Virus record (IMG/VR): IMGVR_UViG_3300045999_003205
Coordinates: 1 to 39,753 of that record
From: a virus
Direction: 5' to 3' (one strand)
DNA length: 39,753 bases
Below are positions 4,468-39,753 of the stretch, in pieces. The stretch's first letter is position 1, and every line of letters begins with the position of its first letter. A program made the translations under genes and the position numbers. The notes under the pieces were generated by a model. It saw only the letters and a program-made list of their open reading frames with translations, made no database searches and was not told where the DNA came from.

Positions 4468-5271
4468 ATGATTACAATTGGCATACCTGTATTAAATCAA
4501 TTTCAAAGCACAGAGCAGACTCTTTATTCTCTAAAAGCAAAGCAAAAATACAAAGAAAATAAATATATCTTATTTGATAATGGTAGTTTTGAACCACTTG
4601 CTACAAAGATTAAATTAGATTTTGGAAACGATTTAGTTATTAGAGTTCCTGAAAACATTGGACTACCTAAAGCATTAAACTTAATTTTAGATAATGCTAA
4701 AACAGATTACGTCTTTTTCACTCACAACGATATAGAAATGTTTGAACAAGATTGGGATGAGAAGATTCTTAAAGCAATACACGAAGCAGGTAATGTGGGA
4801 GTTGCTGGATTTTATGGTGCTATGGGAATTGGAACCTTTGATATTTATAAAACACCTTACGTTATGCAACAGTTAGTGAGAACTAATCCAATTGCTGGTA
4901 CTAAATGCAGACAAGACCCTGCTATACACGGACACTCTCAATTTACTCAAGACTGGATTAAATGCGGAGTTCTAGATGGATTTAGTTTAATTATTAAAAG
5001 AGATGGAGTTTTAAGATTTGAAGAAAGTTTTGGACCTCACCATATGTATGATAATGATATTTGCCTTCAAGCATATGCTAATCACAAACAAGTAATTTGT
5101 ATAAATATGGACATAATCCATTATGGTGGTAGAACTGATGTTAATGAAAATTGGAGTAAAGGATTTGGTAAAGAGAAACACGAAGTCCACGCTGAAGCAC
5201 ACCCACCTTTCTACGAAAAATGGAGAACAGGAAACAACAATGGTAATGTTAAGTTGCCTTTTAGAGTATGA
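4468..5271 (+). CDS. GT2-family glycosyltransferase
   Basis: 267 residues with a GT-A fold. The N-terminus (I-T-I-G-I-P-V-L-N) is the nucleotide-sugar-binding start of GT2 enzymes, E-N-I-G-L-P-K-A-L-N is the usual helix, T-H-N-D-I-E (residues 86-90) replaces the D-x-D metal site, and Y-D-N-D-I-C-L supplies the likely catalytic acid. There is no membrane segment, so it acts in the cytoplasm. It is the first of four glycosyltransferases before the TET/JBP genes and overlaps the following methyltransferase by four bases. In this context it probably adds a sugar during DNA base hypermodification; modification of virion protein or host glycan is the alternative. Confidence 0.8.
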   Translation: MITIGIPVLNQFQSTEQTLYSLKAKQKYKENKYILFDNGSFEPLATKIKLDFGNDLVIRVPENIGLPKALNLILDNAKTDYVFFTHNDIEMFEQDWDEKILKAIHEAGNVGVAGFYGAMGIGTFDIYKTPYVMQQLVRTNPIAGTKCRQDPAIHGHSQFTQDWIKCGVLDGFSLIIKRDGVLRFEESFGPHHMYDNDICLQAYANHKQVICINMDIIHYGGRTDVNENWSKGFGKEKHEVHAEAHPPFYEKWRTGNNNGNVKLPFRV

Positions 5272-5834
5272 CATTTGAGGAAGTTTGGAACTCCGGAACC
5301 CATATCTCACAATCTATATTTAGAGAGGAAGGTGAGCAATTATACAAGGAAGTTATGAAACTACCTGAAGGTTCAGTTATTGTTGAAATTGGTGCCTATG
5401 TTGGTAGAAGTACCCATGTCCTTTGTACTACAGCAAATTTAAGAAATAGTATTGTAATTACTATTGACCCTTTCCTAACTGCTTTTGATGGTTGGCATAA
5501 CTCTGACCCTAAAACTGCTTTTACTGAAAATGTTTTAACTAAGTTTAACAATTTAACTTTGATAGAAGGTTACTCTCAAGACGTGTCAGAGCAAATATTA
5601 TATTGTGATTTTATATTTATAGATGGCGACCATTCATATGAAGGTGTTTTATCTGATATAGAATTATATTTACCTAAACTAAAACCTGGAGGTTGTGTTG
5701 CATTTCACGATTATGTTGGTAGTTCTTTTCACGGATTACAACAAGCAGTAAATGAAAAAGTTGGACATTGGCATACAGTATCCACAGCATACTCTTTGTT
5801 GGTTAAACAGAAACCTTTTGAAAATGAAAATTGA
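5268..5834 (+). CDS. Class I SAM-dependent methyltransferase (Methyltransf_24-like)
   Basis: 188 residues. Motif I is V-I-V-E-I-G-A-Y-V-G-R-S-T (about residues 37-49), the acidic residue of motif II is in V-I-T-I-D-P-F, and F-I-F-I-D-G-D-H-S-Y-E is the Methyltransf_24 signature with its metal-binding D-x-D-H. G-G-C-V-A-F-H-D follows. Relatives methylate sugars or small molecules, often in glycan clusters. None of the cytosine-5 methyltransferase motifs (such as P-C-Q) is present. Start and stop overlap neighbouring glycosyltransferase genes, so it most likely O-methylates a sugar built by them. Confidence 0.8.
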   Translation: MTFEEVWNSGTHISQSIFREEGEQLYKEVMKLPEGSVIVEIGAYVGRSTHVLCTTANLRNSIVITIDPFLTAFDGWHNSDPKTAFTENVLTKFNNLTLIEGYSQDVSEQILYCDFIFIDGDHSYEGVLSDIELYLPKLKPGGCVAFHDYVGSSFHGLQQAVNEKVGHWHTVSTAYSLLVKQKPFENEN

Positions 5835-6540
5835 TTTTATATTACCTATAAAAGTTGATGATGATAAAAGAGTAGAATTACTTGCTCAAACTTTAACTAC
5901 CTTTTTTTTGACAGTTGATACAAATAAATTTAACAGGTTAATTGTTATCAATGACCAAAGCACCCACCCTGAAATAGAAGAATTATTTAGCAGACCGGAG
6001 TTTATAGTTAATCCTTTAATAGTTATAAATTACAATCAAACTCAATTAGGGGTAGGAGGTTCTAAAAATAGGGGAGTTGAACTAGCAAGACAATTTGGAG
6101 AGGGAGATGCACTTTATTTTATGGATGGTGATGTATTTTATACTTGGAATTGGTTAGAGAAAGTATTAGAAGCATATGACAAATACAAAGATGATTTCAA
6201 AATCATTGCTGGTGGTGTTCATCCTTATCTACGACCGAGATTTAGTGAGGATAATGTTTTACTTACATCACACGACGCAATATCTGGCTGGAGTTGGTTT
6301 TTGGACTACAACACTTGGGACAAGTACGGAAAGTTAGCAGATAATTCATTAGGAACAGGTAAAAGTGAAGATTGGGAATACTGCCAAAGAATTAGAAATG
6401 ATGGGTACAAAGTTGGTTGTTTGAAAAATCAAGTTATTGCTCATTGTGGTATTACGAATACAGAAGGTAATCAAATACCTGGATACAGGGAAAGTATTGA
6501 TTTAGCAAATTCAATTACAGATAAGGCAATATTGTTATGA
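5824..6540 (+). CDS. GT2-family glycosyltransferase
   Basis: 238 residues from ATG 5824, which overlaps the methyltransferase end by 11 bases. It starts with the GT-A strand K-I-D-F-I-L-P-I-K, followed by V-I-N-D-Q-S and a G-V-G-G-S-K-N-R-G-V-E helix. F-M-D-G-D-V (D101-G-D103) is a canonical D-x-D that holds the metal and nucleotide-sugar. S-E-D-W-E-Y-C-Q-R carries the likely catalytic base. It resembles polypeptide or glycan GT2/GT27-like enzymes in the final G-W-x-W motif. Donor and acceptor are unknown; context points to sugar chain extension in the same pathway as its neighbours. Confidence 0.8.
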   Translation: MKIDFILPIKVDDDKRVELLAQTLTTFFLTVDTNKFNRLIVINDQSTHPEIEELFSRPEFIVNPLIVINYNQTQLGVGGSKNRGVELARQFGEGDALYFMDGDVFYTWNWLEKVLEAYDKYKDDFKIIAGGVHPYLRPRFSEDNVLLTSHDAISGWSWFLDYNTWDKYGKLADNSLGTGKSEDWEYCQRIRNDGYKVGCLKNQVIAHCGITNTEGNQIPGYRESIDLANSITDKAILL

Positions 6541-6608
6541 CTTTAACTAGAAAAATAGTTTTAATACTTTTTATATGTGCCGTATTTTATTATGAAGGAA
6601 TACTATGA
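6537..6608 (+). CDS. 23-residue hydrophobic peptide coupled to both neighbours
   Basis: A very short frame whose ATG overlaps the upstream glycosyltransferase stop (ATGA at 6537-6540) and whose TGA overlaps the next gene's ATG (ATGA at 6605-6608). The peptide has three basic or polar starting residues followed by a membrane-like run (I-V-L-I-L-F-I-C-A-V-F) and a short polar end. The double overlap is what one expects of a translated cistron. It may be a tiny membrane peptide or simply a coupling device. It also contains the AAGGAA ribosome site for the methyltransferase at 6605. Confidence 0.5.
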   Translation: MTLTRKIVLILFICAVFYYEGIL

Positions 6609-7129
6609 AAGTCAATCTTGCTTCAGGACAAAGACCTTTTAAGAAACCTTGGATAAATGTTGATATTAGAAATCAAGGATATGATATTGATATTGAATGT
6701 GATGTTAAAAAACTCCCATTTGAAGACGAGAGTTGCGATATTTTAGTTGCTCATCACCTTTGGGAGCATATTCCTTTACACGAACAAGAAGAAACTATCC
6801 GAGAATGGCATAGAGTTCTCAAAAAAGGTGGCACTCTATCTATCTTTGTGCCAAACATAAGGGAGATAGCAAATGCTTGGTTATCCGGTAGGATTGACAA
6901 TTTTATTTTTAATGTAAATGTCTATGGTGCTTGGCAAGGACACATCACTGATTTACACAGATGGAGTTATGATGAAAAGGAACTATATGATAGGGTAACT
7001 TGCCAAAGAGATGGACAAGGTTTATTTGATTTTGAAATGAGAAACTATAATCCTACAAATCCACTATACATAGGTGCGGATATTGCTCAGGATTGGTGGA
7101 TACTATCAAAGGAGTTTATTAAAAGATGA
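6605..7129 (+). CDS. Class I SAM-dependent methyltransferase
   Basis: 174 residues. Motif I is reduced to V-N-L-A-S-G-Q near the N-terminus, followed by W-I-N-V-D-I, D-V-K-K-L-P-F-E-D-E-S-C-D, H-L-W-E-H-I-P and R-V-L-K-K-G-G-T-L-S-I-F-V-P-N-I, the usual order in small Methyltransf_11-like proteins of glycan clusters. AAGGAA lies before the start. No DNA-methylase target-recognition region is present and the protein is short, so a sugar or small-molecule acceptor is more likely than DNA itself. Confidence 0.8.
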   Translation: MKVNLASGQRPFKKPWINVDIRNQGYDIDIECDVKKLPFEDESCDILVAHHLWEHIPLHEQEETIREWHRVLKKGGTLSIFVPNIREIANAWLSGRIDNFIFNVNVYGAWQGHITDLHRWSYDEKELYDRVTCQRDGQGLFDFEMRNYNPTNPLYIGADIAQDWWILSKEFIKR

Positions 7130-7153
7130 TAAAATTACTTGGAGGAAATAAAG

Positions 7154-7948
7154 ATGGCAGAACTTCACATAAACATAGTCACATTAAATAATTTAAGTTA
7201 TCTAAAAGATTGTATTAACTCAATCAAAACTAAACATAAATACAAATTAAGAATTATTGACCAAGAAAGCACAGATGGAACTCAAGATTGGTGCAGAACT
7301 CAAAGTATAGATTGTCACAGGTTCCAACCAAGAGTTAGTTTATCTGAAGCGTGGAACTATGGAATTAGAGAAGCACTAAAAGATAGTCAATGTGAGTTCA
7401 TATTCTTTCCAAATAACGATGTTATCTTTCACCCTACAACAATTGACAATTTAATTTATGCTATGAAGAAATTTAAGTATGCTATGGTTACTGGTTCTAA
7501 TGTTGCTCACGATATTTCTTTAGAAGATATGAAATCAAGATTAGAAATGGGGGATTGGAATTTTGATGGATTACCTATTTCAAATTGGAGAGAAGAAGGA
7601 CCTGATTTTAGTTGTCCTTTAATTACTAAAAAAACAATTGAAGAAGTTGGATACTTTGATGAAAACTTTATGCCTGCTTATTTTGAGGATAATGACTATC
7701 ACCTAAGAATACTCAAAGCAGGACTACACGCAAAAAGAATTACTAAGGCACCTTACTACCATTTTGGTTCTATGACTATTAGGAGTAATCCAAACTTGGG
7801 TATTTCTTCCTCAAGAACTCAAAATGTATTTCTACAAAAATGGGGAGCAATGCCTGCTGATTGTATGGATGGAAAAGGATACAACACACCTTATAACGAA
7901 GCAGATAAAAAACATAAACATTGGAGAGGATTTGAAAAATATGAATGA
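7154..7948 (+). CDS. GT2-family glycosyltransferase (rhamnosyltransferase-like)
   Basis: 264 residues. ATG 7154 is chosen because GGAGG (7141-7145) lies 8 nt upstream; an in-frame TTG at 7139 has none. GT-A features: H-I-N-I-V-T-L-N-N start, I-I-D-Q-E-S-T-D-G-T, W-N-Y-G-I-R-E-A helix, F-F-P-N-N-D-V as the metal motif, and Y-F-E-D-N-D-Y-H-L-R as the catalytic-base motif typical of rhamnosyl-type GT2 enzymes. It is cytoplasmic, with no membrane helix. It is third in the glycosyltransferase series and probably extends the same glycan. Confidence 0.8.
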   Translation: MAELHINIVTLNNLSYLKDCINSIKTKHKYKLRIIDQESTDGTQDWCRTQSIDCHRFQPRVSLSEAWNYGIREALKDSQCEFIFFPNNDVIFHPTTIDNLIYAMKKFKYAMVTGSNVAHDISLEDMKSRLEMGDWNFDGLPISNWREEGPDFSCPLITKKTIEEVGYFDENFMPAYFEDNDYHLRILKAGLHAKRITKAPYYHFGSMTIRSNPNLGISSSRTQNVFLQKWGAMPADCMDGKGYNTPYNEADKKHKHWRGFEKYE

Positions 7949-8057
7949 AGAAGAAAAAGGAAGAACAAGTATTTACATAGGTTGTGCTTGTTTAGGTTGT
8001 TTAGGTTTATATGTTTTAGTAATGAGTAGTATTTGGTTAATAAGTTTGATGTTTTAA
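7941..8057 (+). CDS. 38-residue membrane peptide
   Basis: Start ATG 7941 overlaps the end of the preceding glycosyltransferase by 8 bases and the frame ends just before ATG 8059. After a short charged N-terminus (M-N-E-E-E-K-G-R-T-S) there is a continuous hydrophobic segment with a C-A-C-L-G-C cluster, long enough to cross the membrane once. The tight packing between two enzyme genes supports it as real. Function unknown. It is the second tiny membrane peptide in this operon. Confidence 0.55.
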   Translation: MNEEEKGRTSIYIGCACLGCLGLYVLVMSSIWLISLMF

Positions 8058-8058
8058 T

Positions 8059-9534
8059 ATGAATAAAATTAAAGTTTTAGCATTAATGGATTCTCCTACT
8101 GTAGCAACAGGTTTTGCTCAGGTAAGTAAAAATGTTTTAAAGAAATTACACGATACAGGTAAGTACGATATTACTGTTGTTGGCATAAACTTTCACGGAA
8201 CCTTAACCAAAGAACAAATGGAAAAGCACCCATACAACTTTACACCTGCTATGCCTAATGGATATGCTGACCCTTATGGTAGGGGTAGAGTAATACAAAT
8301 CTTACAAGGTATAGATAGAGATATAAAACCACCATTTGATATTTTATTTACAATTCAAGACCACTTTATATTGGCAGGTGGAGATGAGTTAGCACAAGGT
8401 TATAACTTTTCAAAAAGAATCAAAGAAATCCAAGCAGAAATATTAAATAATCAAAACATAGATATGAAATACCTATTTAATTGGGTAGGTTATTTCCCTG
8501 TTGATGGCACTTTACAAAAAAAATGGGTAGAGGCAATTGGAAATTGTGATTATCCTGTTGCTTATACTGAATTTGGAAAGAAAGAAATTGTTAAATTTGA
8601 TACCGATATATTAAGATTACAAGAGAGGTTAAAAGTTATTTATCACGGAGTAAATATAAAGGACTTTTATCCTATGGAAGAACAAGAAATTAAAGAATTT
8701 AGAAAGAATTACTTTCCAAAAGAAATGCCTGAAGATGCATTTTTAATTGTTAATGTTTCAAGAAATCAAACAAGAAAAGATGTTGCCTCTACAATTAAAG
8801 CATTTGCTGAATATAAGAAAATAAATCCAAAAGCATATTTATATTTACATATGAAACAATACGACCACGGAGGTGATTTGTGGGAAATTGCTAAACAATT
8901 TGGTTTAGAAGTTGGTAAAGATATGATGCTACCTACAAACTTTGACCCACAGTTTGGATTTCCAATTGAATTTATAAATAAAATCTACAATTCAGCAGAT
9001 GTGTTAATAACTACCACTTTAGGTGAAGGTTGGGGATTTATTAACACTGAAGCAATGGCAGTTAAAAAACCAATTATTACACCAATGAATACTGCTATGC
9101 CTGAAATAGTAAATATAAATGATGACTACTTTGTAAGAGAACCAAGTATTGAATACATTGAAAATAATATACATAATTTAAGGGGAGTTCCAATTAAATC
9201 AGGTTATGGATTAAATGATTGGATTTGTTTAGGTGCTATGGATAACGGAGTTGTAAGACCAAAAGTTGATATTCAAGATACCGTAGATAAATTAAATTGG
9301 GTATTTAATAATAAAGATAAAGTGCAACAGATTGCACAAAACGGGTATGATTGGGTACAGGAACTAACTTGGGATACAATTTGTAAAGAGTGGGAAACTA
9401 TATTTGATACTGCCTATGCTGAATTAGAAAAAGAAAGAAAGTTAGGACATATAACAGGTAAGATAAAACAAAGACCTAATGACAGATGCAATTGTGGTTC
9501 AGGTAAAAAGTATAAAGTTTGCTGTGGAAAATAA
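8059..9534 (+). CDS. GT4-family glycosyltransferase with C-terminal SEC-C motif
   Basis: 491 residues with a GT-B fold. The N-terminal Rossmann domain starts K-I-K-V-L-A-L-M-D-S-P and contains a G-F-A-Q-V-S motif. V-I-Y-H-G-V-N marks the domain linker. The C-terminal donor domain has I-V-N-V-S-R-N-Q-T-R-K-D and the GT4 signature T-L-G-E-G-W-G-F-I-N-T-E-A-M-A (glutamates that hold the nucleotide-sugar). The last 18 residues form a SEC-C zinc motif (R-C-N-C-G-S-G-K-K-Y-K-x-C-C-G), unusual on a glycosyltransferase and known elsewhere as a protein- or nucleic-acid-contact module. No ribosome site is obvious. Likely partner in the hypermodification pathway; acceptor unknown. Confidence 0.85.
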   Translation: MNKIKVLALMDSPTVATGFAQVSKNVLKKLHDTGKYDITVVGINFHGTLTKEQMEKHPYNFTPAMPNGYADPYGRGRVIQILQGIDRDIKPPFDILFTIQDHFILAGGDELAQGYNFSKRIKEIQAEILNNQNIDMKYLFNWVGYFPVDGTLQKKWVEAIGNCDYPVAYTEFGKKEIVKFDTDILRLQERLKVIYHGVNIKDFYPMEEQEIKEFRKNYFPKEMPEDAFLIVNVSRNQTRKDVASTIKAFAEYKKINPKAYLYLHMKQYDHGGDLWEIAKQFGLEVGKDMMLPTNFDPQFGFPIEFINKIYNSADVLITTTLGEGWGFINTEAMAVKKPIITPMNTAMPEIVNINDDYFVREPSIEYIENNIHNLRGVPIKSGYGLNDWICLGAMDNGVVRPKVDIQDTVDKLNWVFNNKDKVQQIAQNGYDWVQELTWDTICKEWETIFDTAYAELEKERKLGHITGKIKQRPNDRCNCGSGKKYKVCCGK

Positions 9535-9535
9535 T

Positions 9536-10228
9536 ATGGAATACAAACAAAAATGGATTTATAAAAAAACTTACTACCCTAGACCTACCTATGAATTTAA
9601 TCTACCTGCGGGGCATTCTTGTCCATTTGCTAAAGACTGTAAGATTAAAGTTGATGAACATACAGGTAAATTTGACACCATAGGTGCAGGTTATAGATGC
9701 TATGCAGCAATAGCAGAGAGATTTCCTGGAGTTAGAAAACCAAGATGGGAGAACTTTAGATTTGTTTTACACGGAGGTAAGATAGAAGTTCCGGATAACG
9801 CTAAATATGTCCGTATTCATTCATCAGGGGATTTCTTTAATCAAGAATACTTTGATAAATGGTTACAAATATGTAGGGAACATCCTTACGTAACTTTCTG
9901 GGCATTTACTAAATCAATTAGATTTTGGTTAGCAAGAATAAATGAACTACCTGAAAATCTAACTATGACAGGTTCTTTAGGAGGACACGAAGACCATTTA
10001 ATTCACGAACACAAGTTAAAACATTCAAGAGTCGTTAAATCAATTGAAGAAGCAAAACACTATGACTTACCAATAGATAATGATGATACTTTAGCAATGA
10101 TTGGACCTTATTCATTTGCTTTGTTAGACAATACCAAATTCACAATTAAAGAAAGGCAAGAATTAACTGATTTACATAATCAAAATTACCAACATATCTT
10201 TGATGAAGTTAAATCAAAAATGAGATAG
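9536..10228 (+). CDS. GP88-family phage protein, possibly radical-SAM-like
   Basis: 230 residues from ATG 9536. It matches from memory the phage gene-product-88 (GP88) family: G-H-S-C-P-F-A-K-D-C (C29, C35), Y-R-C-Y-A-A (C55), R-F-P-G-V-R-x-P-R-W-E-N-F, V-R-I-H-S-S-G-D-F-F-N-Q-E-Y, and F-W-A-F-T-K-S. The family has no established function that I know. Its order of motifs (cysteines ending in C-Y-A, then S-x-x-D-x-F, then T-F-x-x-x-T-K) parallels the DUF5131/Gp37-Gp68 family, which looks like a TIM-barrel radical-SAM group, so a metal cluster is possible. It lies directly between a glycosyltransferase and the ParB-TET genes. Confidence 0.7.
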   Translation: MEYKQKWIYKKTYYPRPTYEFNLPAGHSCPFAKDCKIKVDEHTGKFDTIGAGYRCYAAIAERFPGVRKPRWENFRFVLHGGKIEVPDNAKYVRIHSSGDFFNQEYFDKWLQICREHPYVTFWAFTKSIRFWLARINELPENLTMTGSLGGHEDHLIHEHKLKHSRVVKSIEEAKHYDLPIDNDDTLAMIGPYSFALLDNTKFTIKERQELTDLHNQNYQHIFDEVKSKMR

Positions 10229-10237
10229 AACTCATAG

Positions 10238-10252
10238 TGATATAATTTATAT
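10238..10252 (+). promoter_or_regulatory. Extended -10 promoter giving a leaderless ParB transcript
   Basis: TGATATAAT (10238-10246) is followed by exactly six bases and then ATG 10253. There is no -35 match and no Shine-Dalgarno site. Transcription from it would start at or next to the A of the start codon, giving a leaderless mRNA for the ParB-TET-TAGT genes. Confidence 0.65.
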
Positions 10253-10861
10253 ATGAAAGAATTAGTAATCAATCCAAGTAATCCAAGAAGCATAACAAAA
10301 AAAGATTTTGAAGCATTAAGAACTTCAGTAAATGAATTTGGCAAAATGTTAGAACTAAGACCAATTGTTTATGATGATGAGAACGTAATATGGGGAGGGA
10401 ATATGCGATACCAAGCATATAAATTAGCAGTACAAGAAGGATTACTAGAACACGATGAAAAATACTTTAAGAAATTACCTAGTGATTGGAATATAGAAGA
10501 TAAAAGAAGATTTGCTATTGCTGATAATGTTAATAGGGGAGATTGGGATGATGAGATTTTAGCAAATGAATGGGACGATTTACCTTTACAGGAATGGGGT
10601 ATCAATACTGACTCTTGGGCAATCCACGAACAATTTGAAAGAGCAAAAGATGTAGGTGAATTAGATGAAGCAATGAACACCTACCTAAACGGAACTATTA
10701 AACAAATAGTTTTATATTATACAAATGAAGAGTTTTTAAATATAATGGCAAAAGTAGATGAAGTAAAAACATTAAATAATTTGGAGGATAACACAGCATT
10801 ATTTAACTTCTTGCTGGAAAACTATTATGAAAACAATATTAGTAAAGAGAAGAGAGATTGA
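10253..10861 (+). CDS. ParB/Srx-fold DNA-modification-associated protein
   Basis: 202 residues. The N-terminal 110 residues match the ParB-N fold: N-P-S-N-P-R-S-I-T, an L-R-P-I-V-Y-D strand, and G-G-N-M-R-Y-Q-A (residues 48-55), the phosphate-binding box. I-A-D-N-V-N-R-G-D-W-D-D-E-I-L follows, the region that in many phage proteins leads into a fused DNA methylase; here no methylase follows. ParB-like proteins recur in predicted DNA-modification loci and may guide the modifier along DNA. It overlaps the TET/JBP gene by 35 bases, which ties the two functionally. It probably does not partition DNA, since no ParA is present. Confidence 0.8.
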   Translation: MKELVINPSNPRSITKKDFEALRTSVNEFGKMLELRPIVYDDENVIWGGNMRYQAYKLAVQEGLLEHDEKYFKKLPSDWNIEDKRRFAIADNVNRGDWDDEILANEWDDLPLQEWGINTDSWAIHEQFERAKDVGELDEAMNTYLNGTIKQIVLYYTNEEFLNIMAKVDEVKTLNNLEDNTALFNFLLENYYENNISKEKRD

Positions 10862-11693
10862 TTTAGAAAAATACAAACATAGAACTGCTTTAGAAACTGA
10901 CTATTCCACATTATTAACCGAATCCGCAATTATTGCTGATGAAGATACAGGAGAAATCCTATGCATTTATAAAGAATTAGATGATGAAGAATTAGATTAT
11001 GCACCGATATTGGGAGCATTAAATAATGTTTCATTTCATACAGGAAAAAGAAGTCATTCAGGTTTGCTATCTACTTCAAGAGTATTTGGTTATTCACCAA
11101 GATTAACTTTAAGAAGAGATTATTGCACCTCTACTTCATTTGCTAGAGAATTTCCTGAAGAACACGCAATAGTTTGTAATTATGGAGAAAAGATAGCAAA
11201 TATCTATCACGAATCAGACCCTGTAATGTATCAAAAGCACGCTGAGATTACAGGAGAGAAAGTGCTAGGAGAATACAAAATACCTAAAACTCCATTTACT
11301 TCAGGAATTGTTAATAAAGATAATCAATTAAAATACCATTTTGATACAGGTAATTTCAAAGAAGTTTATTCTGCTATGTTAGTTCTAAAAAGAGATATTG
11401 CTGGAGGACACCTATCTATACCTGAATTTGATATGGGAATTGAACTTAAAAATAACTCTCTATTTATGTTTGACGGACAAGGATTACTTCACGGAGTAAC
11501 TCCGATATTCAAGAAAACTGCAAGAGCAGTAAGATACTCTATTGTTTATTACTCAATGAGGCAAATGTGGAACTGTCTGCCAATTACCGATGAACTAATT
11601 AGAATTAGAAAGAAGAAAGCAGAAAGAGAAGCAAAGAGAATTGAAAGAATGAGAGAGCAGGAGAAATCTAATGCTGAAAGTTCTAATTCCTAG
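10827..11693 (+). CDS. TET/JBP-type 2OG-Fe(II) dioxygenase
   Basis: 288 residues. A double-stranded beta-helix core carries the iron ligands H171-x-D173 (K-Y-H-F-D-T-G-N) and H222 (G-L-L-H-G-V-T-P), with R233 or R236 (A-R-A-V-R-Y-S-I-V-Y-Y) as the 2-oxoglutarate salt bridge. The A-G-G-H-L-S-I-P-E-F stretch between them is characteristic of the TET/JBP family, which oxidises the 5-methyl group of 5-methylcytosine (TET) or thymine (JBP) in DNA. The N-terminal 100 residues fit the same family and the C-terminus is a basic helix. Overlaps with ParB (35 bases) and TAGT (23 bases) put all three in one unit. It would create the hydroxymethyl group that the glycosyltransferases then use. Confidence 0.85.
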   Translation: MKTILVKRREIDLEKYKHRTALETDYSTLLTESAIIADEDTGEILCIYKELDDEELDYAPILGALNNVSFHTGKRSHSGLLSTSRVFGYSPRLTLRRDYCTSTSFAREFPEEHAIVCNYGEKIANIYHESDPVMYQKHAEITGEKVLGEYKIPKTPFTSGIVNKDNQLKYHFDTGNFKEVYSAMLVLKRDIAGGHLSIPEFDMGIELKNNSLFMFDGQGLLHGVTPIFKKTARAVRYSIVYYSMRQMWNCLPITDELIRIRKKKAEREAKRIERMREQEKSNAESSNS

Positions 11694-12561
11694 TTATAAA
11701 CGTGGAGGCACAATTAAAACTCATCTAATCTTTCAAGATTATCCTGAGTTATTTGAACCTCACATTATTATTCACAATCACGACCAAGAGTATTTTGATA
11801 ATCCTAATATCAAATGCCAAATACACATTTCAAATGCTCCATCAGGAGTAGTTAATCAAAGAAATTGGGTATTAGAAAATCTAATAGAAGATGGTGAATG
11901 GTTTGTTATGGCAGATGACAACATAGATGAATTTACAGTAGTAGAGAAAGATTACTATTACGAAGAAACATTAGACGTTAAAGACAAATCTAATACCTTT
12001 TGGAATAAAGTATTTGCTAAGAGATTAGAAGGTAAAGAAATGTATGATTATTTTACCGAAGATATACAAATTGCTAAAGACAATAAAGCATACCTAATTG
12101 GATTTGCTACAACTCCTAATCCGTTCTTTAGGGAACGAAAATACAGATATGTGGGATATGTGCTATCTAAAGCAATATTGATGTGTAAAACTGATTTTAG
12201 ATGGGATACAAATGTTTTAGCAATGGATGACTATCAATTATCAGCAGAGCATACATACAGATATGGGAAAGTAGTAATAAATAACTACATTAAACCTATG
12301 GCAAAACATTACCAAGCAGGTGGTATTGGAACCTATGAAGCAAGACTACCTAAAAAGATAAGAGATTGTAAGTATCTTAAAGCAAGATATCCTGGATTCT
12401 TTAGATACAAAGAAAAGTCAGGAAAACATCCATTAGCAGAATTACAAATAACAATGACATCTGAAGCACAAGTAGAAAAGTGGAGATTTATTATGAAGAA
12501 AGTTCTAAAATACGACCCTGAATTCTACAAGAAAAAAGTAGGGGAATTAGACTTGGTATAA
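11671..12561 (+). CDS. TET/JBP-associated glycosyltransferase (TAGT)
   Basis: 296 residues, ATG 11671 with AGGAG upstream, overlapping the dioxygenase gene. GT-A features: V-L-I-P-S-Y-K-R-G-G-T start, N-A-P-S-G-V-V-N-Q-R-N-W helix, and W-F-V-M-A-D-D-N-I-D (D82, D83) as the metal site. Further conserved-looking parts are A-M-D-D-Y-Q (185-189) and Y-Q-A-G-G-I-G-T-Y-E-A-R (214-225). This pattern and the direct linkage to a TET/JBP gene match the TAGT family, which is related to the eukaryotic GREB1 domain and predicted to glycosylate hydroxymethyl bases in DNA. It is the best candidate for the first sugar transfer. Donor sugar unknown. Confidence 0.8.
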   Translation: MLKVLIPSYKRGGTIKTHLIFQDYPELFEPHIIIHNHDQEYFDNPNIKCQIHISNAPSGVVNQRNWVLENLIEDGEWFVMADDNIDEFTVVEKDYYYEETLDVKDKSNTFWNKVFAKRLEGKEMYDYFTEDIQIAKDNKAYLIGFATTPNPFFRERKYRYVGYVLSKAILMCKTDFRWDTNVLAMDDYQLSAEHTYRYGKVVINNYIKPMAKHYQAGGIGTYEARLPKKIRDCKYLKARYPGFFRYKEKSGKHPLAELQITMTSEAQVEKWRFIMKKVLKYDPEFYKKKVGELDLV

Positions 12562-12568: not shown

Positions 12569-12964
12569 ATGACTTCAAACCAAGACATGAATAGAAATCC
12601 AACAGGTAAAGGAGGATTCAAAGATAATCCACAAAATAGGAGTAATGGTTCTTGGAACTCAGAAGATAGTATTTCTTTTCAATACAAAAAACTAATTAGA
12701 ATGCCTGTTAATGACTTTAAGAATTGGTTACAAGATTACCCTGAAAAAGATAGAACTGTTGCTCAAGAATTAGCATACAATGCCGTAGTAAAAGCAAGGA
12801 AAGACCTAAAGTATTTAATAGAACTAACTAATAGAACTGAAGGAACTTCAAAGCAATCCATAGATGTTAATGGAGATTTATCAGTCACAACTTTACTTTC
12901 AAAATTAACAGGTGAGAATATACAAGATGAAAATAATACACAACAACCTACAAGAGATAATTAA
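12569..12964 (+). CDS. terS: Terminase small subunit (putative)
   Basis: 131 residues. The N-terminus K-G-G-F-K-D-N-P-Q-N-R-S and the W-N-S-E-D-S-I-S-F-Q-Y stretch are typical of a family of short phage proteins encoded just before the large terminase. A T-V-A-Q-E-L-A-Y helix and a T-N-R-T-E-G segment follow. Small terminases form a ring that recognises phage DNA and hands it to the large subunit. The gene overlaps terL by 38 bases. The C-terminal tail is polar and Q/N-rich. The call is by motif and position, since small terminases diverge quickly. Confidence 0.75.
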   Translation: MTSNQDMNRNPTGKGGFKDNPQNRSNGSWNSEDSISFQYKKLIRMPVNDFKNWLQDYPEKDRTVAQELAYNAVVKARKDLKYLIELTNRTEGTSKQSIDVNGDLSVTTLLSKLTGENIQDENNTQQPTRDN

Positions 12965-14231
12965 CTTTCATCCACACGAAATCCAACAAGAGATTATTAG
13001 AGATAACTCTAGATTTAAGATATTAAATGCTGGTAGAAGATTTGGTAAAAGTTTATTAGGAGCATACCTTGCTACTTATCAAGCATTACAATCTAATCAA
13101 AGAATTTGGGTAGTTGCTCCTACAAATATATTGACTGAGAAGATTTGGAGAGAACTATACTCTTGGTTCATAGGACCTCTAAATCCTATGGTAGAGCAGA
13201 TATATGGTTCTAGAGGTAATTTAAGACTAATTACAAAGACTGGTTCATTTATTGAATGTAAATCAGCAGATGACCCTACAGGACTTATTGGTGAGGGATT
13301 AGATTTATTAATTATGGATGAGGCAAGTAGGATTAAAGAGATTGCTTGGAGGGAAGCATTAAGACCTACCTTGTCAGATAGAATGGGTAAGTCAGTCGCT
13401 ATCAGCACTCCAAAAGGTTCTAAAAATTGGTATTACCAAGATTATAGAAAAGGAACTAAAGGTGAAGATGGATACAAATCTTGGAATATGCCAACCAATA
13501 CAAATCCTTTCTTTCCAAAAGATGAGTGGGAACAATTAACCAAAGAACTAGGAGTTGATAATCCTATTTTCAGGCAAGAGTTCTTGGCAGAGTTTATTGA
13601 TGATGTAGGTGCGGTTTTCAGGAATATACATAGTTGTATTGGTGGAGATTTTGAAGAACCAAAACCTAATATTAAATACTCTATTGGAATTGACCTTGCT
13701 AAAACAATGGATTACACAGTGAAAATGGTAATCAGGCACGATACAAGACAAATTGTTTATATGGAAAGATACAATCAAGTGCCATACGACGAACAAATAA
13801 ATAAAATTATAAGTTTGAGTAAAAGATATAACAATGCTAACATTTTAATTGACTCTACTGGTGTTGGTGACCCTGTTTTTGACATATTAAAGAAACAAGG
13901 TGTAAATGTTAAACCATACAAATTTACCAACCCTAGCAAAGAAAACTTAGTTAGAGGACTAATGATTGCTCTAGAAAACAAAGAGATTTCATATCCTAAA
14001 ATTGATGTTCTAATAGATGAGTTAGAAATGTTTGAATACACTTTGGGAGCAACAGGTGTAATGAGATATAATGCTCCTGAAGGGGAACACGACGATACAG
14101 TGATTGCTTTAGCACTAGCGATTAAAGCAGTTGAAGAAAACCATAGTGGAATTCTAGACTTTTATAAAGGAATAAATGAAAAAGAAGAAACAAAATATAA
14201 TATCAAAAACTTTCAGCAACTTGTTTATTAA
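12927..14231 (+). CDS. terL: Terminase large subunit
   Basis: 434 residues from ATG 12927 (an in-frame GTG lies five codons earlier). ATPase: Walker A G-R-R-F-G-K-S (36-42), Walker B L-L-I-M-D-E-A-S (D131, E132) and the I-S-T-P-K-G coupling motif. RNase H-like nuclease: D256 (G-I-D-L-A), D309 (L-I-D-S-T-G-V-G-D) and D389/D390 (E-H-D-D-T-V). It pumps DNA into the prohead and cuts the concatemer. Length is normal for the family. It overlaps the portal gene by 56 bases. The circular, redundancy-free assembly would fit headful cutting, but the sequence alone cannot prove the mode. Confidence 0.95.
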   Translation: MKIIHNNLQEIINFHPHEIQQEIIRDNSRFKILNAGRRFGKSLLGAYLATYQALQSNQRIWVVAPTNILTEKIWRELYSWFIGPLNPMVEQIYGSRGNLRLITKTGSFIECKSADDPTGLIGEGLDLLIMDEASRIKEIAWREALRPTLSDRMGKSVAISTPKGSKNWYYQDYRKGTKGEDGYKSWNMPTNTNPFFPKDEWEQLTKELGVDNPIFRQEFLAEFIDDVGAVFRNIHSCIGGDFEEPKPNIKYSIGIDLAKTMDYTVKMVIRHDTRQIVYMERYNQVPYDEQINKIISLSKRYNNANILIDSTGVGDPVFDILKKQGVNVKPYKFTNPSKENLVRGLMIALENKEISYPKIDVLIDELEMFEYTLGATGVMRYNAPEGEHDDTVIALALAIKAVEENHSGILDFYKGINEKEETKYNIKNFQQLVY

Positions 14232-36563: not shown

Positions 36564-36863
36564 ATGTTATTTGATATGCAAGAAATAGAACAAAAATTAG
36601 ATTGGGATATAGTACCAATGCTTAAAGGACAGCACGATAGATTAAAACTATACTTTCCTGACCAAGATGCACCTTATTGGGCATTTGTAGGTAATGAAAA
36701 TTGGATAATAACTAGGAGTGTTGATGGGAATACAGGTAAGGTATTTTTCAGTATTTATGAAAGAAATTCATTTATCTGGGGAACTTACAAATACCTGAAA
36801 GATAAAGGTGAAATGGACAAGTATTGGCAAAGCAGGGCAACTCAAAATAAAACTGTTGTATAA
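36564..36863 (+). CDS. Hypothetical replication-operon protein
   Basis: 99 residues, start two bases after the helicase stop, with GGAG upstream in the helicase end. It has aromatic-rich strands (Y-W-A-F-V-G-N-E-N-W-I-I-T, K-V-F-F-S-I-Y-E-R) and a charged C-terminus. No family is recognised. Tight linkage suggests a replication accessory. Confidence 0.65.
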   Translation: MLFDMQEIEQKLDWDIVPMLKGQHDRLKLYFPDQDAPYWAFVGNENWIITRSVDGNTGKVFFSIYERNSFIWGTYKYLKDKGEMDKYWQSRATQNKTVV

Positions 36864-36882
36864 TAACTAATTATGTTATAAT
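36862..36882 (+). promoter_or_regulatory. Promoter P3 (partial operator copy)
   Basis: AATAAC-N7-GTTATAAT with TATAAT at 36877-36882 and TTGTAT near the -35 position. It matches the shared promoter family with a degenerate left arm, like P2. It overlaps the end of the preceding gene and serves 36957 onward. Confidence 0.6.
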
Positions 36883-36915
36883 ACACATAACCAATGCTGT
36901 CCGCAGAAGGTTTGG

Positions 36916-37671: not shown

Positions 37672-37692
37672 CACTTCAGGACTCACCTATTT

Positions 37693-37720
37693 TTGACATT
37701 ATAACCAATTATGTTATAAT
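37693..37720 (+). promoter_or_regulatory. Promoter P4 with palindromic operator
   Basis: TTGACA (37693-37698), 16-bp spacer, TATAAT (37715-37720), with the perfect ATTATAAC-N7-GTTATAAT palindrome. The 28-base core is identical to P1. It drives 37753 onward. Confidence 0.8.
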
Positions 37721-37752
37721 AGATTTAGTAGTAAATTGGAGAAAGGAAAAAG

Positions 37753-38070
37753 ATGAAAAACAAAACTCCAAACAAAATGTATAAATTTCAAATACTAAAG
37801 GACGGAGAAGTTCTTAAATATGAGTTCAATGAGGAAGATACAAGATTTATTATTGAACAATTATTTGATTGGGAGTTAATCCAAGAAAGAATTGATTATA
37901 CCTACAAAGGTAGATATTACTCTTTGGAACAAATCTTAAATAGATTTATTGAAGAAATAACTATTATGAGAGATTGGGACGGAAAGTATTTAGAAGAAAA
38001 GGTATTCCAAGAACAAAGAACCAATGAAGTTCTTAAAGTATTGGATTTTATGAACTCAAGAACTAAGTAA
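37753..38070 (+). CDS. Hypothetical early protein
   Basis: 105 residues, first gene after P4, with GAAAGGAAA before ATG 37753. It is acidic and helical with aromatic residues (F-D-W-E-L-I-Q-E-R-I-D-Y, R-D-W-D-G-K-Y). No known family is recognised. Early expression under the shared operator is the only clue to its role. Confidence 0.65.
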   Translation: MKNKTPNKMYKFQILKDGEVLKYEFNEEDTRFIIEQLFDWELIQERIDYTYKGRYYSLEQILNRFIEEITIMRDWDGKYLEEKVFQEQRTNEVLKVLDFMNSRTK

Positions 38071-38457: not shown

Positions 38458-38461
38458 AGTT

Positions 38462-38489
38462 TTGACATTATAACTAATTATGTTATAAT
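38462..38489 (+). promoter_or_regulatory. Promoter P5 with palindromic operator
   Basis: TTGACA (38462-38467), 16-bp spacer, TATAAT (38484-38489), with the perfect ATTATAAC-N7-GTTATAAT palindrome; one spacer base differs from P1 and P4. It drives the operon that runs through the join to 443. Confidence 0.8.
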
Positions 38490-38524
38490 AATAGTAGTAA
38501 AAAATTATGGAAGAAATAAAAAAG

Positions 38525-38788
38525 ATGAAACAATTTTATTCTCAAGAACTATCCAACGGTGCTACCCTGTATTCAATTATCAAGACTGATTCCAACCAAC
38601 CAATGACTGAGCAAGGTATGGACATTATGTTTATCTCAATGATTAACTTTGCTAGACCTAACACAGCAACAAGAACAATCAAGTTTAGATACGACTACCT
38701 CAAACAAGCAGGTATGTCTTTTGACCAACCAACAGTTGAGTATTTAGATTCAATAACTTTAGATATTATTGGCAAGTTTAAGATTTAA
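38525..38788 (+). CDS. Hypothetical early protein
   Basis: 87 residues from ATG 38525. An in-frame ATG at 38507 sits where the ribosome site should be (ATGGAAGAA), as in the leader of the gene at 2270, so the later ATG is preferred. A mixed alpha/beta sequence with T-L-Y-S-I-I-K-T and T-R-T-I-K-F-R-Y-D-Y-L. No family is recognised. Confidence 0.6.
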   Translation: MKQFYSQELSNGATLYSIIKTDSNQPMTEQGMDIMFISMINFARPNTATRTIKFRYDYLKQAGMSFDQPTVEYLDSITLDIIGKFKI

Positions 38789-39454: not shown

Positions 39455-39753
39455 ATTTGTAATGGATGACAGACACACAAGTGAGTTATCAGGATTTGAA
39501 TTTGAAGGTATTAAAAGCAATTGGAAGAGTGAAATGCATACTAGGATTATTAATAATGCCGACAAACCTTTAGAAGTATGGAGTTTTGTTGATTACAAAC
39601 AAACACAAACAAATAAACTGTTAGCAGAAAATATCTACATAGAACTATTTGTTGATGGTAAATTAAAAAATGGTAAAGATACTTTCAAAGTTTGGAAGAG
39701 ATTAGGAATACCATTTACCATACAACCAAAACAAATTGTTGCAGTTGATATGT
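39447..39753 (+). CDS. 5' part of a hypothetical early protein (continues at base 1)
   Basis: Start ATG 39447 with AAGGAGAAA upstream. The frame runs off the right end at residue 102, and the same frame continues in bases 1-207 after removing the repeated 126 bases, giving a 128-residue protein. The N-terminal half is charged with W-K-S-E-M-H-T-R and V-W-S-F-V-D-Y; no family is recognised. Confidence 0.8.
   Translation, partial: MIEFVMDDRHTSELSGFEFEGIKSNWKSEMHTRIINNADKPLEVWSFVDYKQTQTNKLLAENIYIELFVDGKLKNGKDTFKVWKRLGIPFTIQPKQIVAVDM
39627..39752. repeat. Terminal redundancy (copy of bases 1-126)
   Basis: Bases 39627-39752 equal bases 1-126 exactly; the final base 39753 (T) differs from base 127 (A). 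The overlap lies within a coding gene and has no sign of a cos site or of a true direct terminal repeat. It most simply shows that the assembly closes into a circle, the length being near a common assembler overlap of 127. Confidence 0.9.

Follow-up and report, generated by a model that had tools for sequence, protein, structure and literature searches.

Putative thymine hypermodification genes next to a separable glycosyltransferase cassette in a phage genome with a TET/JBP oxygenase

The ParB-TET-TAGT genes

The stretch of DNA analysed here (the window) is the whole IMG/VR virus record IMGVR_UViG_3300045999_003205, 39,753 nt long, in which a gene for a TET/JBP-type oxygenase lies between a ParB-like gene and a gene for a TET-associated glycosyltransferase (TAGT), downstream of a series of further glycosyltransferase and methyltransferase genes. 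An open reading frame (ORF) check combined with family searches recovered every ORF of this locus at the coordinates of a preliminary description. The three central genes are all on the plus strand and encode a ParB-like protein with the ParB/Srx fold (10253..10861, 202 aa; PHROG 620 at 2e-13, PHROG 498 at 2e-18), the 2-oxoglutarate/Fe(II) oxygenase (10827..11693, 288 aa) and the TAGT (11671..12561, 296 aa). ParB and TET genes overlap by 35 nt and TET and TAGT genes by 23 nt, and the other gaps at the locus are at most 64 nt; the gene coupling that had been claimed is thus real.

The oxygenase matches the Pfam family Tet_JBP at 58.1 bits (8e-16; cut-off 34.9). Its AlphaFold model has a predicted local distance difference test score (pLDDT) of 93.7, and the best fold matches are TET2 with DNA (Z 20.8 over 250 residues, 3.5 Å), CMD1 (19.8) and NgTET1 (19.7). 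The top 16 matches are all TET2, CMD1, NgTET1 or CcTet, and FTO and AlkB rank lower. In an alignment of 36 relatives H171, D173, H222 and R236 are invariant, which by sequence identifies the first three as the predicted Fe ligands and R236 as the predicted 2-oxoglutarate ligand. R233, which the preliminary description had also listed as catalytic, lies outside the invariant or nearly invariant columns and thus is not the 2-oxoglutarate arginine; the other proposed catalytic residues stand. Taking Pfam match, invariant residues and predicted fold together, the proposed membership of the oxygenase in the TET/JBP family is a secure prediction.

By its PHROG match (PHROG 6059) the oxygenase would be named a queuine tRNA-ribosyltransferase, which is contradicted by both fold and Pfam. 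Phage records widely misname TET/JBP proteins in this way (phrog_6059; RefSeq mycobacteriophage gene 2). A search of genome contigs gave only three TET relatives, too few to assign a host.

The TAGT carries a DDN motif at residues 82-84 (PHROG 842, 1.4e-8). With the TAGT family PF20691 it shares the position beside a TET gene and the GT-A fold. The Pfam match is clear at the level of the family but weak for the window copy itself, which scores 25.3 bits, just under the cut-off of 27.5. PF20691 is matched by 13 of 16 aligned TAGT relatives, the best at 1e-17. The AlphaFold model (pLDDT 86) finds GT-A glycosyltransferases at Z 13-15.

Conservation of the module in lineage A

A profile scan of IMG/VR confirmed 476 relatives of the oxygenase, of which the best 80 were kept; we call these relatives lineage A. 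Partner genes were counted in these 80 together with three genome loci, i. e. in 83 loci. A ParB-type gene is present in 72 of them, usually directly upstream of TET, and a TAGT-type gene in 52, where it either separates ParB from TET or follows TET directly. Overlaps, families and this lineage-wide association all support the earlier proposal that the oxygenase is coupled to ParB and TAGT. As judged from conservation across loci, the modification module consists of these three genes (10253-10861, 10827-11693 and 11671-12561) only.

One might ask whether the TAGT works on the product of the oxygenase at all. TET could make only 5-hydroxymethyluracil (5hmU), or oxidise further, and the TAGT could use another acceptor. 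In two closely related phages, L221 (2749-4342) and L228 (3797-5330), ParB is followed by a TAGT with a strong match (130 bits in L221), and TET is missing from the site. The pair lies between a GT4 gene and the terminase, which is the same genomic place as that of the window module. L221 and L228 are short fragments, however, and a TET gene could lie outside them. Against a separate acceptor stands the adjacency of a TAGT-type gene to TET in more than half of the lineage-A loci, and we consider this explanation very unlikely. The site in L221 and L228 suggests a swappable modification slot.

The arrangement differs in the region 9716-11819 of L001, the closest relative of the window: here the TAGT has given way to another ParB-like gene, a gene resembling DpdA/TGT (PHROG 887, 4e-34) and one for a queuosine precursor transporter (TIGR00697, 102 bits). 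Possibly, this phage combines 7-deazaguanine modification with TET.

C5-methylases and two TET lineages

In Pfam searches of the probably complete 39.75-kb genome, neither PF00145 nor PF00303 gave a match. This agrees with the preliminary description, which had reported that C5-methylase, hydroxymethylase and thymidylate synthase are missing. It had also singled out the missing methylase as unusual, which does not hold: for lineage A this is the normal state.

The comparison with a second lineage, that of Methylophilales phage Melnitz, makes this apparent. In the Melnitz lineage the TET gene overlaps an HhaI-like C5-methylase gene. Counted with one query set for both lineages, 75 of 80 Melnitz-lineage loci have a C5-methylase no more than 3 kb away from TET, compared with only 2 of 84 lineage-A loci (Fisher p about 1e-37, the sequences being related and hence not independent). 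Whole-record Pfam searches gave a C5-methylase in 43 of 50 records of a mostly Melnitz-lineage set (two of which are of the P12024L type), and for lineage A in 3 of 49 virus records and in none of 20 further records. In one of the three positives, a record of 327 kb, the gene lies far from TET. None of eight complete reference phages has a C5-methylase.

A third group falls outside this simple two-lineage rule. TETs of the P12024L type (L007 4731-6996, from Nonlabens phage P12024L; L104-L119) occur with a TAGT, and no C5-methylase was found near TET in the 20 P12024L-type and Cr30-type loci taken together. In P12024L itself an N6/N4-type DNA methylase gene lies behind TET and TAGT.

Partner exchange and the substrate of the oxygenase

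The partner genes of lineage A bear on the question of which base is oxidised. In Wooper, Kozie, L018, L094 and L095, lineage-A TETs adjoin genes for ADDT (amino acid:DNA transferase, PF18724) and a P-loop nucleotide kinase (PF18751), and several such loci are from actinobacterial phages. Related arrangements are ParB-ADDT-FAD oxidoreductase-P-loop protein-TET in L058 and ParB-TET-ADDT-P-loop protein in L034. ADDT and the P-loop kinase are partners known from thymidine hypermodification, in which 5hmU in DNA is reportedly phosphorylated and then conjugated. In phage Tonitrus, a set of five genes that includes ParB, TET, aGPT-Pplase2 and a 5-hmU kinase was interpreted as a possible thymidine hypermodification system (PMC11955845).

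On the TET tree, TAGT and ADDT/kinase have been exchanged at least five times; L034 and L055-L058 fall within groups of TAGT loci. Across this exchange most active-site columns are unchanged. Because the partners switch and most active-site columns stay constant, a shared product, 5hmU, with interchangeable second steps is suggested, and the substrate of TET is probably the same in TAGT and in ADDT/kinase loci. Judging from partners and lineage, we consider thymine the probable substrate of the window oxygenase. Thymine already has a 5-methyl group and hence no methylase would be needed. Of the two substrates that had been put forward at the outset, it is thus the thymine, base J-like one that gains support.

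Gene product 3 of Mycobacterium phage Nigel (L004 1786-2382), annotated as terminase small subunit, matches the P-loop kinase family PF18751 at 242 bits and is likely a modification kinase.

The other substrate would be 5-methylcytosine (5mC), made by a C5-methylase of the host, of a prophage or of a second phage, oxidised by TET to 5-hydroxymethylcytosine and then glycosylated by the TAGT. For cytosine, phage TETs whose step follows a C5-methylase and precedes glycosyltransferases are established according to Burke et al. 2021, as cited in PMC12730594, and two lineage-A loci, L016 and L017, have C5-methylase, ParB and TET in one operon. The TETs of these two loci are 49% identical to the window oxygenase and lie near it on the tree, so that 5mC has to be weighed for the window, too. 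Several further points count against thymine. Many of the related records are fragments. ADDT and kinase are known to act on 5hmU-derived bases, but action of the present homologues on U rather than C is an inference. No residue could be shown to separate thymine from 5mC specificity; N176, which differs from the D of NgTET1-like enzymes, was considered as a single-residue marker of thymine and dropped, since TET2 also has N there. The cytosine route is in turn opposed by the 82 of 84 lineage-A loci that have no methylase nearby, compared with the 75 of 80 Melnitz-type loci that do, by the few sites that would be modified if the phage relied on 5mC of its host, and by the partners of the same TETs, which are thymidine-hypermodification enzymes. 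Taken together, we regard 5mC as an unlikely substrate of the oxygenase, and the cytosine route as a whole as equally doubtful.

The upstream glycosyltransferase/methyltransferase cassette

Upstream of the module and on the same strand lie three GT2 genes, one GT4 gene and two methyltransferase genes, whose positions and Pfam families were confirmed as first described. They are, in order, GT2 a (4468..5271; PF00535, 2e-13, 51 bits), an O-methyltransferase-like Methyltransf_24 gene (5268..5834; PF13578, 7e-20, 72 bits; also a weak match to rhamnosyl O-methyltransferase), GT2 b (5824..6540; PF00535, 4e-8, 34 bits), a Methyltransf_11-type methyltransferase gene (6605..7129; PF08241, 2e-12, 48 bits), GT2 c (7154..7948, with a start at 7139 or 7154; PF00535, 4e-13, 50 bits) and GT4 with a C-terminal SEC-C motif (8059..9534; PF00534, 1e-12, 48 bits; PF02810, 3e-6; PHROG 2170, 3e-44). 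For GT2 b, which has a homologue in L001, the start at 5824 agrees with the homologues better than that at 5752; the Methyltransf_11-type protein is 74% identical to its counterpart in L001.

The preliminary description had joined these genes with the module into a single pathway, in which at least five glycosyltransferases and two methyltransferases build one multi-sugar, possibly O-methylated decoration of the base. The layout is in its favour: cassette and module share one direction of transcription and their genes overlap or are close together, so that joint use is conceivable, and the block also adjoins TET in L001. The distribution of the block speaks against it. Among the lineage-A loci, the GT2/GT4/methyltransferase block is found beside TET only in the window and in L001, apart from one subgroup with a Methyltransf_24-like gene. 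A scan with GT4 gave 80 relatives. Many of these loci have the GT2 and methyltransferase genes of the window as well as related genes for terminase, portal, protease and capsid, and in many the GT4 gene lies beside portal or terminase; among the 80, TET occurs only on the L001 contig. A Pfam search for Tet_JBP was negative in all 50 GT4-bearing virus records and in the three complete phages TJE1, S-CBS4 and Mae-JY09, whereas the same search found the domain in L001 and in two reference phages. In S-CBS4 the GT4-GT2-methyltransferase trio adjoins the portal gene, and in Mae-JY09 GT4 lies among head genes. A tblastn search of GT2 b and GT2 c against named phages gave no match, and a terminase search for close relatives gave one fragment only.

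Since the cassette recurs in relatives without TET, the five glycosyltransferases are best divided into one TAGT and a separable cassette. A single decoration built by all of them is accordingly improbable, given that the block is missing from nearly all other lineage-A loci. By its gene content and occurrence the block at 4468-9534 is probably a property of the phage family in its own right. From distribution and position it probably glycosylates something other than DNA, the likeliest target being a virion protein.

Genome and neighbouring genes

The ends of the record share an exact direct repeat of 126 nt (1-126 equals 39627-39752, one base short of the final base). Such a repeat usually marks an assembly that is circular or terminally redundant, so that the phage genome is probably essentially complete. 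The genes present in the window include those for terminase, portal, head, tail, endolysin and replication.

Between the two blocks lies a gene for a GP88-family protein (9479..10228, plus strand, 249 aa; PF17338, 3e-32, 113 bits), which has no counterpart at the corresponding place in L001 and which the preliminary description had passed over. In L276 a GP88 homologue is located directly upstream of the GT4 gene. The module sits at the boundary to the packaging genes, with terminase ORFs directly downstream on the plus strand (12569..14231): a small terminase-like ORF (12569-12964), to which a small-subunit role may be assigned by position, and the terminase large subunit (12912-14231; PHROG 2, 1e-45).

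Outside the locus, the promoter-like repeat TTGACATTATAACNAATTATGTTATAATA occurs in five copies (1223-1288, 2221-2286, 36860-36888, 37691-37756 and 38460-38525), the spacer of which holds the inverted TTATAAC/GTTATAA. The copies look like early promoters with one common repressor site.

Proposed mechanism and relation to known systems

The interpretation we lean towards, with some reservation, is that of two neighbouring modules, a ParB-TET-TAGT module for thymine hypermodification and a separate glycosyltransferase cassette. The ParB-like protein would bring the enzymes to replicated phage DNA, in DNA loading or targeting. There the oxygenase, to judge from its partners, would hydroxylate the methyl group of thymine and thereby produce 5hmU in DNA. 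The TAGT, by its family and position, would transfer one sugar to the new hydroxyl, and the resulting glycosyloxymethyluracil would resemble base J. By analogy, such a bulky base could block host nucleases and so protect the DNA. The cassette would act elsewhere, most likely on a virion protein. That the same applies to lineage A at large, i. e. that this widespread lineage hydroxylates thymine and most of its members then glycosylate it by a TAGT, as a phage counterpart of base J with interchangeable second steps, is to our mind evenly balanced.

The closest parallel in chemistry would be kinetoplastid base J (JBP1/JBP2 and base J glucosyltransferase), where likewise an oxygenase without DNA methylase is followed by a dedicated glycosyltransferase. 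The proposed product is of the same kind, glycosyloxymethyluracil. The window differs in that these are phage genes with a ParB-like partner and no J-DNA-binding domain. Gordonia phage Wooper and Rhodococcus phage Tonitrus carry ParB-TET-aGPT-Pplase2(ADDT)-5hmU kinase systems (PMC11955845) that have the same ParB-TET pair, the same TET lineage (checked for Wooper) and a proposed 5hmU intermediate, but the window has a glycosyltransferase in place of the kinase and the amino acid transferase. The Melnitz-type systems also use a TET/JBP oxygenase for pyrimidine hypermodification of phage DNA. Their TETs carry an HxDxGD motif and have an adjacent C5-methylase, whereas in the window lineage the motif reads YHxDxxNF and the methylase is absent.

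The association of TET with TAGT is already known, as the Pfam name tells, and ParB-TET thymidine hypermodification has been proposed in print (PMC11955845). Our analysis adds that phage TETs can be split by whether a methylase gene is linked to them, and that TAGT and ADDT/kinase replace one another on one TET tree. We found no publication in which a phage TET is shown to give rise to glycosylated hydroxymethyluracil, with key original papers beyond the reach of the literature search.

The cassette is a warning that glycosyltransferases adjacent to TET are not all DNA-modifying. If thymine is indeed the substrate, the common assumption that phage TETs target cytosine would have to be corrected. 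Phage TET lineages would differ in their substrate and could be told apart by sequence and neighbouring genes, and they would offer ready-made thymine-specific hydroxylases together with DNA glycosyltransferases. Phages would then have a chemistry that parallels base J of kinetoplastids.

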